Source: Verrucomicrobiota bacterium JB022
GTDB taxonomy: Bacteria; Verrucomicrobiota; Verrucomicrobiia; Opitutales; Oceanipulchritudinaceae
Direction: 5' to 3'
Length of the DNA stretch: 64,000 nt
Assembly (NCBI GenBank): GCA_030673845.1
Contig: JAUTCQ010000021.1
Span: forward strand, 1-64,000
The first letter of the stretch is position 1, and each line of letters begins with the position of its first letter. Below the pieces are notes generated by a model. The model had not been told where the DNA came from. It worked only from the letters and a program-made list of their open reading frames with translations, and ran no database searches. Of the stretch, positions 53,790 through 64,000 are shown piece after piece. Position numbers and translations under genes: made by a program.

Positions 53790-53895
53790 CCCCAGTGTCG
53801 GACAGGCAAGCCCCGTCGCTGCCCAAAGAGATATGTCCTCCGCCCGCGCAGGCATTTACCGCCGCTTCCGCATAGCGCATAATGGTATGCACCTT

Positions 53896-56358
53896 ATGAA
53901 AACCCTTTCCCTGTCGGGCGACTGGACCCTGCACCTTGCCACCGAAAACGACCCCCTGCCCGCCCGCGTCCCGGGCTGCGTCCACCTCGACCTCCTACGC
54001 GCCGGTCGCATCGAAGACCCTTTTTATCGCGACCGCGAGCAAGCATACGGCTGGGTCTCCGATCAGGATTGGAGCTACCGCCGCGAATTTACCATCGCTG
54101 CGGATTTCCTCGACCAGCCTCAGGTGCGACTCCGGGCGGAAGGCCTCGACACCTTTGCCGAAGTCCGCGTCAACGGCACGCCAGTTGCCCAAACGGACAA
54201 CATGTTCCGCACCTGGGAGTTTGACGTAAAGCACCTCCTGAAGCCTGGACAAAACGACATCGAGGTCCGCTTCACCTCGCCCACCGACTACATTCGCGCA
54301 CGACAACAGGAGCACTTCCTTTGGCACACCGGCATCGACCACCACCGCATCAGTGGCGGCAACTGGGTGCGCAAGGAGCAGTGCCAATTCGGCTGGGATT
54401 GGGGCCCGATGCTACCGACGATGGGCATCTGGCGCGAGCTTTCGCTGGTCGCCTTTACCAGCCGCTTGGGAGACGTGCACACCCAGCAGATCCATCGCGA
54501 AGGCCGCGTAGAGCTGAGCCTGGCCGCGGAAGTCGAGCACGCCCAGCCGGGTCAACAGGTGGTCGCCAAGCTGAGCCTGCGGGGCCAAGCGGTGACTGAG
54601 GTTACGCTGCAGGATGGTAGCGGCACCCTTACGGTAGATCACCCGGAACTGTGGTGGCCCAACGATCTGGGCGCTCAACCGCTTTACGACATGGAGGTCA
54701 CGCTACGGCAGGGCGGCCAAACTATTGACCGATGTCACCAGCGCCTCGGCCTGCGCACGCTCGAGCTGGTGCGCGAGAAGGACGAATGGGGTGAGTCTTT
54801 TTGCTTTGCGGCCAACGGGCGTCGTTTTTTTGCCAAAGGCGCAAATTGGATCCCCGCCGACTCCTTCGATGGGCGCATCACCCGCGAAGACCTGCGCGAC
54901 CTGCTCGAAAGCGCCCGCGCCGCCCACATGAACTGCATCCGCGTATGGGGCGGCGGCAAATATGAGTGCGACGCCTTTTACGAGCTGTGCGATGAGCTGG
55001 GCATCTGCGTGTGGCAAGACTTCATGTTTGCCTGCTCGGCCTACCCGGCACACGTCCCCGCATTCCGCGCAAGCGTCCAGGCCGAAGCTGAAGACAATGT
55101 GCGACGCCTGCGCCACCACGCCTGCCTTGCGCTCTGGTGCGGCAACAACGAGCTGGAGCAGATCCCCGGGATCGTAGGCGATGAGCCCGGCACGATGAAC
55201 TGGGCCGACTACTGCACCCTCTTCGACGACCTGCTCGGCGAAGTCGTCACGCGGCTCGACCCCGTCCGTGCCTATTGGCCATCGAGCGAACACAGCCCCA
55301 TCGGCGACCGCGCCGCCCCCGCCTCGACCGACCCGCGCTGGGGCGACGCCCACCTCTGGAAGGTGTGGCACGGGCGCGAGCCTTTCGAATGGTACCGCAC
55401 CGCCTTTCACCGCTTCTGCAGCGAATTCGGCTTCCAGAGCTTCCCCGAGCCCCGCACCGTCGCCACCTACACCGAGCCACGCGACCGCAACATCACCAGC
55501 TATGTGATGGAACTCCACCAGCGCAGCCCCATCGGGAACAGCGCGATCATGGACTACGGGCTCAGCTGGTTCCGCCTGCCCGTGGGCTTCGACGCCACGC
55601 TCTGGCTTTCGCAGATCATCCAGGTGCTTGGCATCCAATATGCCGTCGAACACTGGCGGCGTAACATGCCGCGCTGCATGGGCGCGATCTATTGGCAGCT
55701 CAACGACTGCTGGCCTGTCGCAAGCTGGGCGTCCATCGACTATCTGCACCGCTGGAAGGCCCTGCACTACGCTGCTCGCCGCTTCTTCGCGCCCGTGATG
55801 CTCTCGACGGTCGAAGACCTGAAGGCGCAGTCCGTCGAAGTCCACCTGAGCAACGACTACGCACAGGCCCAGGAGGGCCATATCCACTGGCAACTGACGA
55901 CCACTAGCGGCGAGGTAATCGAACAAGGACACCGCTCGGCCCAGATCGACGGCAACGCCAGCGCGCGCATTTTTACGCTCGATGCGGCGGCAGCACTGGC
56001 CAAACACGGGCCGCGCGACGTGATCGCATGGTTCAGCCTCGAGATCGGCGAACGGGTCGTATCGCGCAGCCTCGCGCTGTTTGCCCGGCCCAAGCACATG
56101 GACTTGCCGGACCCGAAGCTCCAGTTGACCACCAAAGTGGAGGGCGACCGCATCACCGCCACCGTTTCTGCCGAAAAACCGGCTCTTTGGACGTGGCTAA
56201 CCCACCCGGCGGCGGACATCCGCTGGGACGACAGCTTCACGCATCTCAGCGCGGGCGAAACACGCGTCTTTACCGGGAGGATCCGCGAGCAGGAGCCAAG
56301 CTTCGACGCAAGTGAATTGCGGGCGCTAAGCCTTTACGATACCTATCAGGAGGCATGA
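53896..56358 (+). CDS. Beta-mannosidase, glycoside hydrolase family 2
   Basis: An 820-residue cytoplasmic enzyme (no signal peptide) of GH2. It has an N-terminal sugar-binding jelly roll starting SLSGDWTLHL, an Ig-like domain, and a TIM barrel carrying the general acid/base E419 in LWCGNNELEQ and the nucleophile E510 in FCSEFGFQSFPE. The length, YWPSSEHSP and the WDWGP segment match beta-mannosidases. It would release mannose from short beta-mannosides taken into the cell. It is the first gene of a glycan cluster and diverges from the AraC regulator. Confidence 0.9.
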   Translation: MKTLSLSGDWTLHLATENDPLPARVPGCVHLDLLRAGRIEDPFYRDREQAYGWVSDQDWSYRREFTIAADFLDQPQVRLRAEGLDTFAEVRVNGTPVAQTDNMFRTWEFDVKHLLKPGQNDIEVRFTSPTDYIRARQQEHFLWHTGIDHHRISGGNWVRKEQCQFGWDWGPMLPTMGIWRELSLVAFTSRLGDVHTQQIHREGRVELSLAAEVEHAQPGQQVVAKLSLRGQAVTEVTLQDGSGTLTVDHPELWWPNDLGAQPLYDMEVTLRQGGQTIDRCHQRLGLRTLELVREKDEWGESFCFAANGRRFFAKGANWIPADSFDGRITREDLRDLLESARAAHMNCIRVWGGGKYECDAFYELCDELGICVWQDFMFACSAYPAHVPAFRASVQAEAEDNVRRLRHHACLALWCGNNELEQIPGIVGDEPGTMNWADYCTLFDDLLGEVVTRLDPVRAYWPSSEHSPIGDRAAPASTDPRWGDAHLWKVWHGREPFEWYRTAFHRFCSEFGFQSFPEPRTVATYTEPRDRNITSYVMELHQRSPIGNSAIMDYGLSWFRLPVGFDATLWLSQIIQVLGIQYAVEHWRRNMPRCMGAIYWQLNDCWPVASWASIDYLHRWKALHYAARRFFAPVMLSTVEDLKAQSVEVHLSNDYAQAQEGHIHWQLTTTSGEVIEQGHRSAQIDGNASARIFTLDAAAALAKHGPRDVIAWFSLEIGERVVSRSLALFARPKHMDLPDPKLQLTTKVEGDRITATVSAEKPALWTWLTHPAADIRWDDSFTHLSAGETRVFTGRIREQEPSFDASELRALSLYDTYQEA

Positions 56359-56448
56359 GGTAAACGGTACACCGAGGTCAGGATTGTCTTAGCACCTCAA
56401 TCGGCTCGAAAGTGGGGGTGGTCCCGCGTGACAAACCTACCCCCTCCG

Positions 56449-58320
56449 ATGATGTTTCCCTTTTTCGCCCGACGGATACTCCCCCTATTCACCTTTGCCA
56501 CGACTGTGCTCTGCGCCCAGAACACGATCCGCTGGCAGAGCCCCAATGGTCAGCTTACAGCAACGCTGGAGCTGGCTAGCGACAGCCGACCGCATTGGAG
56601 CTTGCAGGCCGGCAACAAGGCGATCCTGCTGCCGGCCCCGATAGGGATCACCTTGGGCGGGGTCGACCTCGGGGCGGATTCCGAACTGGTGAAGGTTCAA
56701 CCGACCTCCGGTGAAGACGTGGTGGCCGCAACGGGAGTAGCCCAGGCCGCTTCAGTGGCATGGCAGGGACGAACCCTGGAGCTGCGTCACCAGCCTGATG
56801 GCCGGATTTGGACGCTGGAAACCCGGCTTTTTGACGATGGCTTTGCCTGGCGATACCGATTGGAACAAACTGAAAATCAGGAAGTAAACGGCGAGGTGAG
56901 CAGCTTCAAGCTACCGCCTCAAAGCCAGGTGTGGGTGGCGGAACGCCCCAATGACTGGAAGCTGAAGTCGTATGCGGGCTATTGGATGCAAGTCCCGGTT
57001 GAAGATTTGGCCACCTTTTCGCCGGTCGGCCCAGTCCAAGGTCCGCCGCTCGTGGCGGAGTTGCCCGGCGGTGGCTTTGCACTTTTGACGGAAGCGGCCT
57101 TAGCGGATTACAGCGGCATGCGCCTCAAAGCACAGCAAGATGGCCGCTTACAGGCTGATTTTGCGCCCTTTCGTGCAGACGGTCCGCTCGTGACCCCTTG
57201 GCGTGTGGCTCTCTATGCGCAGGATCTCAATACGCTGGTGAACCAACGGGTCATTCCCGCACTCAACCCGGCTCCCGATCCCGCCTTGTTTGTCGATCTC
57301 TCCTGGATCCATTACGGCAAGGCGGCATGGCGCTGGTGGAGCTCAGGCACCGGGACCCCCGCTGAAGAGCGGGAATTTATCGACTACGCGGCCAAACTGG
57401 GCTTTGCGTATTCACTGGTCGACGATGGCTGGAAGGATTGGGAGCAGCCGTGGGCGCAAATCGCCGAGTTGGCAGCGTATGGGAAAGACCAAGGCGTGCA
57501 TTTGCTGATCTGGCGAGATTACAAAGACTTAGCTGATCCAAGCAACGACTACGAAGCTTTGACATATTTTATCGACAAAGCCGCAAAAGCCGAGGTTGCC
57601 GGATTGAAAATAGATTTTTTCAATGCAGAATCCAAGGATCGCATCGACTTTGAACAACGCGCCCTGAAGGAGGCGGCTCGCCGCCAACTGGTCGTCATTT
57701 TCCATGGCATCCAAAAGCCGACCGGTGAAGCCCGAACCTTCCCGAACGAAGTCACACGCGAAGGTATTCGCGGCATCGAACTGAACAAGATGGCAGAGGG
57801 GCCGCTGACCGCAGAACACAACACCGCGCTGCCTTTCACCCGGCTGGTCGTCGGCGCTGGAGACTATACACCGATCGCATTTTCCAAACCGGGACCAACT
57901 ACTTGGGCGCACCAGGTCGCCACCCTTGTTGCCTTTACCTCGCCTGTGCAAGTGATCGCGGAGCATCCCCGCATGTTGCTGGAAGACGAACGCACCGCGC
58001 CCGCCTTGCCCTTCATCCGCGACGTGCCCACGGTATGGGACGAAACGCGCGTCCTGCCCGGCAGCAAAATCGGTAAACTGGCAGCATTGGCGCGCCGCAG
58101 TGGTGACCAGTGGTGGCTGGCCGTGCTCAACAATCAGCCGCTGGAATGGCCGCTCGATCTCTCTTTCCTTGGGGACGGTGCGTATGAAGCACATGTGCTG
58201 CGAAGCCCTCAGCCGAACGCCTTGAGTGCTGAATCGCATGCCGCAACGCCCAATTGGCGACCGACCTTTTCACTGCAGCAAGGCGACGGCCTTGTGATCC
58301 GCTTCATTCCAGCCCGATAA
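56449..58320 (+). CDS. Secreted GH97 alpha-glucosidase or alpha-galactosidase
   Basis: A 623-residue enzyme with a signal peptide (ending TTVLCAQ) of family GH97. The N-terminal beta-sandwich starts IRWQSPNGQL; the catalytic barrel includes FSYSLVDDGW-like FAYSLVDDGWKDWEQP, LLIWRDYKD, GLKIDFFNAESKDR and VIFHGIQKPTGE. Retention of D389 in GLKIDFF, the nucleophile position of the retaining (alpha-galactosidase) subgroup, suggests retaining chemistry; inverting SusB-type members lack it. Substrate preference between glucose and galactose cannot be settled by eye. The next gene follows by 5 bp. Confidence 0.8.
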   Translation: MMFPFFARRILPLFTFATTVLCAQNTIRWQSPNGQLTATLELASDSRPHWSLQAGNKAILLPAPIGITLGGVDLGADSELVKVQPTSGEDVVAATGVAQAASVAWQGRTLELRHQPDGRIWTLETRLFDDGFAWRYRLEQTENQEVNGEVSSFKLPPQSQVWVAERPNDWKLKSYAGYWMQVPVEDLATFSPVGPVQGPPLVAELPGGGFALLTEAALADYSGMRLKAQQDGRLQADFAPFRADGPLVTPWRVALYAQDLNTLVNQRVIPALNPAPDPALFVDLSWIHYGKAAWRWWSSGTGTPAEEREFIDYAAKLGFAYSLVDDGWKDWEQPWAQIAELAAYGKDQGVHLLIWRDYKDLADPSNDYEALTYFIDKAAKAEVAGLKIDFFNAESKDRIDFEQRALKEAARRQLVVIFHGIQKPTGEARTFPNEVTREGIRGIELNKMAEGPLTAEHNTALPFTRLVVGAGDYTPIAFSKPGPTTWAHQVATLVAFTSPVQVIAEHPRMLLEDERTAPALPFIRDVPTVWDETRVLPGSKIGKLAALARRSGDQWWLAVLNNQPLEWPLDLSFLGDGAYEAHVLRSPQPNALSAESHAATPNWRPTFSLQQGDGLVIRFIPAR

Positions 58321-58325
58321 AGACC

Positions 58326-60884
58326 ATGAAGTGGCTCATATTTTGCCTCGCGGCAGCGCCCTTGGCCGCCGAAACGCTCGTGCTCGAAGACTCCGCTTGC
58401 CGCCTCAGTTGGGAAGAGTCGTCCCAAGGGTGGCAACTGGTCGAAGTGGCCCTGAAGACTGCAGCGGGCGAAATCAACGCACCCGCCAGCAGTGGCGCCC
58501 AGTCGGTTATATTCTCCGCCGAGGAACCTTCGCAGGAGTCCAGACCATTTTATTTGTCAAAGAACGACAGGCCATTCCCAGAGCCCATCTACCGCTACAA
58601 CATCGCGAAATGGCAGCAGGCTACGACCCCGGTAGCGCTCAACGAAGCGGGTGAGCACTGGAGTTTCTGGCCAGCAACGGCCGATTTGATGCCGGATGGA
58701 AGCCTGCACACTCGGGCCACCTCTGATCAGGCGACCGTCACCACCCATTGGCAACTGGATCCTTCCTTCCCGGGCGACGTAGTGGTAACGCAGACGCTGA
58801 CCGCACGACGCAGCGGCTACTTCTCTCAAAGCACGCCCACGCTCTTTACCGCCAAGCCGGATCAACTGGCCTGGGCGACCGTGCCGGGCTATTTCCAAGG
58901 CGATACGGTCAACGAAAACCTGGTGGAATCGCTGGTTTACGGTCACGGCTTGCCTGCGCTGCCTGTTCTGGCGCGCGAAAGAGGCACGTCGTCACTGACG
59001 TCGATCCAAACAGTCAAGAACGGCCTCACCCTGGCCGTAACCGCAGCGCCGGGCACAGCGGCTGACCCTTGGCCGCAGGACCGAGCGCAGCGGGCCATCT
59101 GGAAGCTCGGTCTCTCGCACCGCAACCGGCAAGGCGCGCTGGCACCAACGCTTTATCACCCGGTATTGGGCGAGGAGGGTTCCTTTCTGAAGACTGGCGA
59201 GTCGGTCACTTTTACCTTCCGCTATAGCCTGAGCGATGGAGACTGGTACCGAGCCTTGCAACATGTGGCACGTGACATTTACCGCCTACCTGACTTTCTG
59301 GAGCTGAAACAACCGCAGACTTCCTTGAGCGAGCGCCTGATCGAACTACACGAATACGTGGTCGACGACGAAACATCGATGTGGCGGACCGAAGAGTTTG
59401 GAGGACTCAAAATCGGCGCGCAAGCCTACCTCGGCGGCGTCGTCCGCTCGGATCGCGATGCGATGAAAAACTCGGACTACGGAGCGATGTGGATGCTCGC
59501 CAATTTGACCCAAGATCCGCGCCTGACGGAAGACCGGCTGCCATTTGCGCGCAACTTCAAGCTCGCCCAGCAACAGATTGAGGGTGGATTTTTCCAAGGC
59601 GCTGCGCTTGGACAATATTTTCTTTCAAAGAGCCGACGCTTCACCGAAGAATGGGGGGACTATATCGAGCCGGTGGCGTTGACCTACTACATGCTACTCG
59701 ATCTCGGCAACATCCTGCTGATCACCCCAGGAGATGCCGAACTGAGGGACCGCGTCCGCCTGGCTGCGGACCGGCTGCTCGCCTGGCAACACGAAGACGG
59801 CCATTGGGAAGTTGCTTACGATCATGAAACCGAGCAGCCGCTCTTTACCGCTACGCCCGACTATCGACCCACTTTCTACGGCTTGCTGGTCGCCTACCGC
59901 CTGCTAGGCGATGAACGTTACCTGAAGGGGGCCGAACAGGGTGCGCAATGGTTGATCGAGCACGCAGTGGCTCATGGGCGCTTCCTCGGGGTATGCGGCG
60001 ACAACCGTTTCGCTCCGGATTTCGCCACCGCTCAAATCGCCCAAGGGCTGCTCGACCTCTACGAGCTGACCGCAAACGAGGATTACCTGCAGGCGGCCAT
60101 CCAGACGGCGCGATTTTACACGACGGCCATCTTCACCCACCCACGCGCGACGACGGTGACGAAGGAGGTGAAAGGCGAAGAGGTGCCGGACTGGGCGATC
60201 AATCAGACCGGGCTCAGCTTCGAGCATGGCGGCTCCATCGGCTCGGCCGCGACGGAGGGCCCGATCTTGCTGGCGAGCCACGCGGGGCTTTTCATCCGCA
60301 TGGCCGAAATAACGGGCGACACCTATCTGGTAGAGCTTGCCCGCGCCGCTACGCTCGCACGCGATGCTTTTGTAAACAAAGAGACGCAAGTTGCTTCCTA
60401 TTACTGGGTTGCCATGAATAGAGGCGCAGGCCCCTACCCTCACCACGGCTGGTGGCAGATCGGCTGGATCACGGATTACCTGATCTCCGAAGCTTCTTAC
60501 CGGACGCATGGCGCAGTTCGCTTTCCGCGCGGTTTCATGACGCCCAAGGTCGGCCCGCATGCGTGCTACGGCTTTGCCCCGGGCGAGATTTTCGGACAGC
60601 CTGCACAGTTGGCTTGGCTCGACCTCGATATAGGCAACGCGGCGGTCGATTACGTAGCGGCAGAGGCGCCAGACGGCTCATGCAGCTATGTGATTCTGCT
60701 GAACCAGTCCCCACAGGTGCAGGAGGTGAAGGCAGATTTACCCCAACAGCTCAAGACCAAGAAGGGGCTTGATTTGCAACATGTTACCATTCTCGATTCA
60801 ACGAACCCTCCGGAGCCTGCCGAGCGCAGCCTCCGCCTGCCTGCTTGGGGCGCGCGCATCGTAAGACTCGATTGGGAGCGCTAG
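58326..60884 (+). CDS. Secreted protein with probable (alpha/alpha)6-barrel domain, putative glycan-active enzyme
   Basis: An 852-residue protein with a signal peptide (MKWLIFCLAAAPLAAE). It has an N-terminal beta-rich region (about 20-310), a long helical middle (about 340-720) with the six-hairpin toroid look, including LLAWQHEDGHWEVAYDHETEQP and ALTYYMLLDLGNILL, and a C-terminal beta-rich tail. Aromatic and acidic clusters (HHGWWQIGW, FEHGGS) suggest a sugar-binding groove. I cannot assign a CAZy family. It lies 5 bp after the GH97 gene, so it is co-expressed with it and probably acts on the same glycan. Confidence 0.6.
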   Translation: MKWLIFCLAAAPLAAETLVLEDSACRLSWEESSQGWQLVEVALKTAAGEINAPASSGAQSVIFSAEEPSQESRPFYLSKNDRPFPEPIYRYNIAKWQQATTPVALNEAGEHWSFWPATADLMPDGSLHTRATSDQATVTTHWQLDPSFPGDVVVTQTLTARRSGYFSQSTPTLFTAKPDQLAWATVPGYFQGDTVNENLVESLVYGHGLPALPVLARERGTSSLTSIQTVKNGLTLAVTAAPGTAADPWPQDRAQRAIWKLGLSHRNRQGALAPTLYHPVLGEEGSFLKTGESVTFTFRYSLSDGDWYRALQHVARDIYRLPDFLELKQPQTSLSERLIELHEYVVDDETSMWRTEEFGGLKIGAQAYLGGVVRSDRDAMKNSDYGAMWMLANLTQDPRLTEDRLPFARNFKLAQQQIEGGFFQGAALGQYFLSKSRRFTEEWGDYIEPVALTYYMLLDLGNILLITPGDAELRDRVRLAADRLLAWQHEDGHWEVAYDHETEQPLFTATPDYRPTFYGLLVAYRLLGDERYLKGAEQGAQWLIEHAVAHGRFLGVCGDNRFAPDFATAQIAQGLLDLYELTANEDYLQAAIQTARFYTTAIFTHPRATTVTKEVKGEEVPDWAINQTGLSFEHGGSIGSAATEGPILLASHAGLFIRMAEITGDTYLVELARAATLARDAFVNKETQVASYYWVAMNRGAGPYPHHGWWQIGWITDYLISEASYRTHGAVRFPRGFMTPKVGPHACYGFAPGEIFGQPAQLAWLDLDIGNAAVDYVAAEAPDGSCSYVILLNQSPQVQEVKADLPQQLKTKKGLDLQHVTILDSTNPPEPAERSLRLPAWGARIVRLDWER

Positions 60885-63163: not shown

Positions 63164-63191
63164 GAGCGGGCGCTCCGCGTCCTCCTTTTCG

Positions 63192-63224
63192 CCCCGCTGC
63201 GCCTATGCGCTGCGGGGCTTTTTC
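63192..63224 (+). terminator. Rho-independent terminator after sucD
   Basis: GCCCCGCTGCGC pairs with GCGCTGCGGGGC (12 bp, one T-T mismatch, CTAT loop), followed by TTTTT, 28 bp past the sucD stop. Confidence 0.9.
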
Positions 63225-63310: not shown

Positions 63311-64000
63311 ATGCAGTTCGCGAAATACCACGCTTTGGGCAACGATTATCTGGTGCTTCCGATGGAACAGGCGGAGGAAGCCACGCTCACGCCAGCCTTC
63401 GTCGAGCGCGTGTGCCACCGCAATTTCGGCTTGGGCTCCGATGGGATCCTGTATGGCCCCCTGCCCTCCGAGGTGGCCGATTTCGGACTGCGGATTTTCA
63501 ACCCCGATGGCAGCGAAGCCGAGAAAAGCGGCAACGGCCTGCGGATTTTTTGCCGCTTCCTGCTCGACATCAAGAGCGTGGAGGTGGGCCGCGAGTTCAG
63601 CATCGAGACCAAGGGCGGCGTGGTGCAGTGCCAGATCCGTGAAGACGGGTTGATCAAGGTCGAGATGGGCCAGGTGAGCTTCCACTCGTCGAAAATCCCC
63701 GTCGCGGGCAGCCCGCGCGAAGTGCTCGACGAGCCGATCACGCTTGGTGGCAAGGAATACCGCTACTACGCCGCAACCATCGGCAACCCCCACTGTGTGT
63801 TGCCGCGCGATGAAATTTCCGCCCGTGAGACGAAAGAGCTGGGCCCGATCCTCGAAAAGGACGCCCGCTTCCCCAACCGCACCAACGTGCAGTTCCTCAA
63901 GGTGATCGACCGCGAAAACATCCAGATCGAGATCTGGGAGCGCGGCGCGGGCTATACCCTCGCCTCGGGCAGCAGCTCCAGCGCGGCCGGTGCCGTCGCC
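63311..64000 (+). CDS. dapF: Diaminopimelate epimerase, partial at window edge, both catalytic Cys read as Ser
   Basis: The first 230 residues of a DapF homologue; the gene runs past the window end. MQFAKYHALGNDYLVLP, RNFGLGSDGILYG, FRIFNPDGSEAEKSGNG-like segment, TIGNPHCVL and ERGAGYTLASGS follow the family order. DapF interconverts LL- and meso-diaminopimelate for lysine and peptidoglycan by a two-cysteine mechanism. Here the first catalytic Cys (in CGNGxR) reads Ser73 (KSGNGLRIF) and the second (ACGSG) reads Ser219 (ASGSSS). A nearby Cys81 does not sit at the catalytic position. It is a diverged subfamily or has a different chemistry. Confidence 0.82.
   Translation, partial: MQFAKYHALGNDYLVLPMEQAEEATLTPAFVERVCHRNFGLGSDGILYGPLPSEVADFGLRIFNPDGSEAEKSGNGLRIFCRFLLDIKSVEVGREFSIETKGGVVQCQIREDGLIKVEMGQVSFHSSKIPVAGSPREVLDEPITLGGKEYRYYAATIGNPHCVLPRDEISARETKELGPILEKDARFPNRTNVQFLKVIDRENIQIEIWERGAGYTLASGSSSSAAGAVA

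Follow-up and report, generated by a model that had tools for sequence, protein, structure and literature searches.

At the end of the 64,000-nucleotide stretch analysed here (the window; positions 1 to 64,000, forward strand, of contig JAUTCQ010000021.1, assembly GCA_030673845.1) from Verrucomicrobiota bacterium JB022, a member of the Opitutales, lies a gene for a homologue of the diaminopimelate (DAP) epimerase DapF in which serine takes the place of both catalytic cysteines. DapF is known from textbooks as an epimerase that works with two thiols, and it is a target for antibacterials. The features of this gene within the window are as follows.

63311..64000, plus strand: dapF of the serine/serine (Ser/Ser) type, residues 1-230 of 280; TIGR00652, 203.5 bits for the part in the window
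63524..63526, plus strand: codon of Lys72, adjoining Ser73 and invariant in the Ser/Ser clade except in the degenerate sequence L196
63527..63529, plus strand: Ser73 codon AGC (EAEKSGNGLRIF), replacing the first catalytic Cys
63965..63967, plus strand: Ser219 codon TCG (GYTLASGSSSS), replacing the second catalytic Cys

The reading frame begins with the ATG at 63311 and is open to the end of the window. The sequence past position 64,000, which the earlier note had called for, completes the gene: on contig C21 (L002:5312-6154) the frame runs intact to 64153 and encodes 280 amino acids. The full-length protein scores 238 bits against TIGR00652 over residues 1-270, above the curated cut-off of 114.65 bits, and its 70.6 bits against the model of the bifunctional DapF/glutamate racemase (NF038284) is under the cut-off of 350. 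All 38 clade members scanned match TIGR00652, and they match DapF models only.

Alignment to solved DapFs (EC 5.1.1.7; TIGR00652, PF01678), the nearest being those of Anabaena (9mro), P. aeruginosa (8qzy) and E. coli (4ijz), bears out the earlier claim that AGC at residue 73 and TCG at residue 219 occupy the catalytic positions, with Ser73 corresponding to Cys75 and Ser219 to Cys224 of the Anabaena enzyme (MCGNG, LACGTG). The two catalytic cysteines of DapF (CGNGxR, ACGTG) are therefore absent, and the serines that stand in their place are invariant in the clade. A displaced neighbouring cysteine, which would have overturned the claim, was considered as the catalytic residue and rejected: the alignment has none near either site, and the non-catalytic Cys79 of CGNGxRC is also replaced, by Ile. 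Cys35 is present in DapFs of the cysteine/cysteine (Cys/Cys) type as well, and Cys162 has a counterpart in the canonical Anabaena DapF.

The Ser/Ser proteins form a real, conserved DapF subfamily. The best 80 relatives, drawn from GTDB genome contigs of independent assemblies, are all Ser/Ser, as is the copy in a genome of the same genus (G031, 88% identity). Typing of 183 DapF rows, which include some loci re-reading one gene, gave 139 Ser/Ser, 44 Cys/Cys and no mixed pair; the distinct set holds 105 Ser/Ser proteins (the divergent L196 left out) and 43 Cys/Cys proteins, and 31 loci read afterwards, which include a few genes from the first count, were Ser/Ser throughout. In a tree of 149 distinct proteins every Ser/Ser sequence falls on one side of one branch (Shimodaira-Hasegawa-like approximate likelihood ratio test, SH-aLRT, 100), so that one origin of the form is the simplest reading. 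The phylogeny and column checks agree with the earlier view that replacement of both cysteines is no random single mutation. The protein studied here is 25-36% identical to Cys/Cys DapFs, and the Ser/Ser clade has fixed residues of its own, Lys72, Ile79, Tyr215 and Ser222, where the Cys/Cys set has mostly Met, Cys, Glu and Gly; at position 72 that set has Met in 42 of 43 proteins, Asn in one and Lys in none. By their record labels, clade members belong to Verrucomicrobiota and, beyond it, to no fewer than six phyla (Thermodesulfobacteriota/Deltaproteobacteria, Planctomycetota, Chloroflexi, Armatimonadota, Cyanobacteria and Pseudomonadota), many members being metagenome bins whose phylum labels are possibly wrong; also in the clade are Dulcicalothrix desertica PCC 7102 and two complete genomes, those of Adhaeretor mobilis and Verrucomicrobia bacterium IMCC26134.

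L196 (G051:C9:7065-7856) is a fast-evolving Ser/Ser DapF that has lost Lys72 (EISGNGVRIF). The genome that encodes it belongs to the same order, measures 0.9 Mb and lacks LysA and MurE matches as well as any strong match to DapL. Verrucomicrobiota Cys/Cys DapFs (L139-L168, L179, L183, L186, L193) carry Val at the equivalent of Asn159, as do 39 of the 43 proteins of the Cys/Cys set taken as a whole; this position of DapF binds the distal carboxylate, and chlamydial DapF has V145 there (PMC5885031). A KTGNG pattern match in G352 (L232) shows no resemblance to DapF and was discarded as a chance match.

Codon usage at the two positions indicates that serine itself has been maintained. Each position uses both AGY and TCN codons, and clade members show all four pairings; as the two blocks are more than one base apart, serine has been kept through changes of codon block and has not drifted to Ala or Gly. 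Relative to the same-genus copy the nonsynonymous rate (dN) is 0.081 and the synonymous rate (dS) 0.83, a dN/dS of about 0.1, and by this comparison dapF is under strong purifying selection.

The substrate-binding apparatus is likewise preserved. Using the list of DAP-contact residues given for Anabaena DapF (PMC12039745), we find identity at Asn13, Asn66, Gly76, Asn77, Asn164, Asn197, Glu215, Arg216 and Gly225 (Anabaena numbering), Thr226 alone being changed, to Ser; the DAP-binding residues N13, N66, N77, N164, N197, E215 and R216 are invariant in the clade alignment. The residues that hold the distal amino-carboxylate of DAP are thus kept (Asn64, Asn159, Asn192, Glu210 and Arg211 here), and so are His161 and Glu210, which correspond to residues described as essential (PMC5885031). 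An AlphaFold2 model (predicted local distance difference test, pLDDT, 96.5; predicted template modelling score, pTM, 0.92) has helices starting at residues 74 and 220, directly after each serine, and the nearest structures in the PDB are DAP epimerases at a template modelling (TM) score of about 0.88. Fold match and predicted secondary structure thus agree with DapF, in which each catalytic residue stands where a helix begins.

The genome has a single DapF. No second one scores above cut-off, the other PF01678 matches being noise (best 14.6 bits), and the normal second copy that the earlier note had envisaged is absent here, although certain genomes from other phyla do carry a canonical second copy. 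DapF is present in 263 of the 286 genomes sampled from the class, nearly all with exactly one match (G091 has two), and the 56 class genomes with the pattern KSGNG(L/I)RIF have exactly one DapF each. No DapF match was found in G286, G331, G201, G233 and G306 of the same order or in G083 of the same class, at an estimated completeness of at least 95%. The source's order is mostly Ser/Ser; genus g40 (three genomes) and genome G052 have a Cys/Cys protein as their sole DapF, and in genus g49, of another family, two species are Cys/Cys and a third is Ser/Ser. DapL, the LL-DAP aminotransferase, is retained in Opitutales of both types. Such one-for-one exchange beside the same DapL is the pattern expected of two forms of one enzyme, although the genomes are related and the exchanges therefore amount to a few events rather than hundreds of independent ones. 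The earlier suggestion of a distinct subfamily is supported as regards altered chemistry, given the single clade and its two invariant serines; an altered substrate is disfavoured, because the DAP-holding residues are kept and both types interchange as sole DapF beside the same DapL.

Outside the class, 21 of the 30 clade-member genomes searched have a single DapF match and the remainder more than one. Those additional copies whose residues could be read carry Cys, except in Dulcicalothrix, a cyanobacterial isolate with one Cys/Cys and two Ser/Ser genes. One of these Ser/Ser genes lies 48 bp downstream of lysA (464 bits, above cut-off), which suggests that even a paralogous copy has DAP for its substrate. 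Across phyla no neighbour is conserved beyond close relatives, and this was the single lysA link found.

The pathway around DapF is present in the genome, with an LL-DAP source (DapL, 576 bits), MurE (490 bits, DNPR motif) and a LysA homologue (G000:C13:48830-50056, L201) of 269 bits, below the TIGR01048 cut-off of 297.9 bits. Ddh has no match in this genome or in 23 relatives. The earlier note had raised loss of the epimerase step should another enzyme supply meso-DAP; the search it proposed for a second dapF or ddh yields neither, which leaves no other known supplier in this genome, and loss of the step is disfavoured for a sole DapF under strong purifying selection. The genome has two MurE homologues (G000:C16:75268-76656, 490 bits, and G000:C17:57906-59297, 436 bits) that are 34% identical and both carry DNPR; two copies are common in its own family and not in the remainder of the sampled order.

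By sequence the protein is a DapF-family member that lacks, among the DapF features tested, only the two cysteines, and since it belongs to DapF yet breaks the textbook active-site rule, we class it as a variant DapF. Retention of the LL-DAP epimerase role is most likely, and we consider it probable, from the sequence comparisons and the model together, that this is a working LL-DAP epimerase, the only one in the cell, with a Ser/Ser acid-base pair. DapL would make LL-DAP, which the Ser/Ser DapF would convert to meso-DAP to feed LysA for lysine and MurE for peptidoglycan. The cysteine thiolate/thiol pair would give way to the hydroxyls of Ser73 and Ser219, each placed at the N-terminal end of one of the two active-site helices, one serine removing the alpha proton and the other giving a proton back on the opposite face. 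As a guess, Lys72 might lower the pKa of Ser73 and so aid its loss of a proton, and the clade-specific Tyr215 and Ser222 may assist. We infer that the protein acts on LL-DAP, that its serines serve as acid and base, and that clade-specific residues may help.

Known systems offer partial likenesses. The protein resembles canonical DapF in fold, length, DAP-binding residues, His161, Glu210, helix starts and pathway setting, and differs in the two catalytic residues and in its own Lys72, Ile79, Tyr215 and Ser222. Within the same fold there is natural precedent for one serine at the first position, in the active Ser/Cys 4-hydroxyproline epimerase (4HypE) and the Ser/Thr dehydratase (t3HypD), where serine is catalytic (PMC4113996); these members of the proline racemase superfamily, however, have at most one Ser, with Cys (epimerase) or Thr (dehydratase) as partner, act on proline substrates and are about 16% identical. 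Laboratory mutants carry Ser at the equivalent positions, namely C73S and C217S of H. influenzae DapF (2q9h, 2q9j) and C67S/C209S of F. nucleatum HisR (PMC11602996), but these are single engineered changes in a Cys-tuned enzyme, whereas here both serines occur naturally, alongside neighbouring residues specific to the clade. The family and the pathway slot are shared by chlamydial-type DapF (PMC5885031) and the Cys/Cys DapFs of other Verrucomicrobiota, which differ in being Cys/Cys, with the Val noted above. No prior report of a natural Ser/Ser DapF was found in the open-licence literature searched.

Several points weigh against a working LL-DAP epimerase. Cys-to-Ser mutants of HisR turn over far more slowly (PMC11602996), Cys-to-Ser mutations are said to hinder DapF catalysis (PMC12039745), and Cys-to-Ala mutants of chlamydial DapF do not complement a D-Glu auxotroph (PMC5885031). 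The LysA homologue is under the cut-off not only here but in every sampled order relative with a match. DAP in Lacunisphaera and Opitutus was measured by gas chromatography/mass spectrometry (GC/MS) at about one tenth of the E. coli level, isomer unspecified, and DL-DAP was unseen by thin-layer chromatography (TLC) in Lacunisphaera (PMC5303756); we infer from the order-wide survey that the strains studied carry the Ser/Ser form. The same study lists the DAP aminotransferase pathway, DapF included, for Lacunisphaera limnophila. Beyond the class, certain Ser/Ser genomes hold a Cys/Cys DapF as well, another candidate epimerase there.

The poor catalysis of engineered mutants, the scarce DAP of isomer unproven in Opitutaceae walls and the two MurE homologues would fit a DapF of little or no catalytic activity, retained for a binding or regulatory role, with LL-DAP in the wall or meso-DAP from a non-homologous epimerase, and E. 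coli DapF reportedly has a non-catalytic role with RppH (PMC4227774). We regard this as quite improbable. A dead protein is not expected to replace the real enzyme one for one, dN/dS is low, and the serines are strictly kept across codon blocks. LysA acts on meso-DAP, and its homologue is kept, in the same score range as in G052; since G052 has a Cys/Cys DapF, the low-scoring LysA does not track the serine form. It is unlikely, too, that the protein epimerises or racemises some amino acid other than DAP, like HisR, CntK or O-ureidoserine racemase, with meso-DAP made by an unrecognised enzyme. A DapF-fold protein annotated as DapF does act on histidine (PMC11602996), and a Ser/Ser copy beside a Cys/Cys DapF in several other phyla is as for an added function; against this stand the residues for the distal end of DAP, all kept, the swap with Cys/Cys DapF in genomes keeping DapL, the lysA that adjoins one cyanobacterial copy and the exclusive matches to DapF models. 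That the serines reflect sequencing error, a pseudogene or a paralogue beside a normal DapF is scarcely credible: relatives in independent assemblies, single-contig genomes included, are all Ser/Ser, which excludes chance or error, and the one DapF of the genome has an intact frame.

Upstream of dapF the window contains one further feature of its transcription.

63191..63223, plus strand: probable intrinsic terminator 3' of sucD, a hairpin followed by TTTTT (-24.5 kcal/mol, z -5.3)

An operon of dapF with sucCD was rejected, as this strong terminator-like hairpin lies in between; its position after sucD suggests that dapF is transcribed separately. A consensus scan upstream of dapF gave only a weaker hairpin at 63168-63182 and listed no promoter. 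Nearby in the window are a glycoside hydrolase family 2 (GH2) beta-mannosidase-like protein (53833-56358) and a GH97 protein (56428-58320), adjoined by an 876-residue protein (58254-60884) with sub-threshold GH88/GH127 matches only.

If the Ser/Ser DapF is a working epimerase, the reaction can proceed independently of sulfur, and the subfamily would provide a sharp test of how a hydroxyl removes a very weakly acidic alpha proton. Inhibitors of the aziridino-DAP type bind the DapF cysteines covalently (PMC12039745) and C. glutamicum DapF has a disulfide redox switch (PMC5296763); the Ser/Ser form would be expected to evade both. The NCBI family model names these proteins DapF from score alone. 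The wall of Verrucomicrobia subdivision 4, formerly described as without DAP, is disputed (PMC5303756), and the Ser/Ser DapF bears on that dispute.
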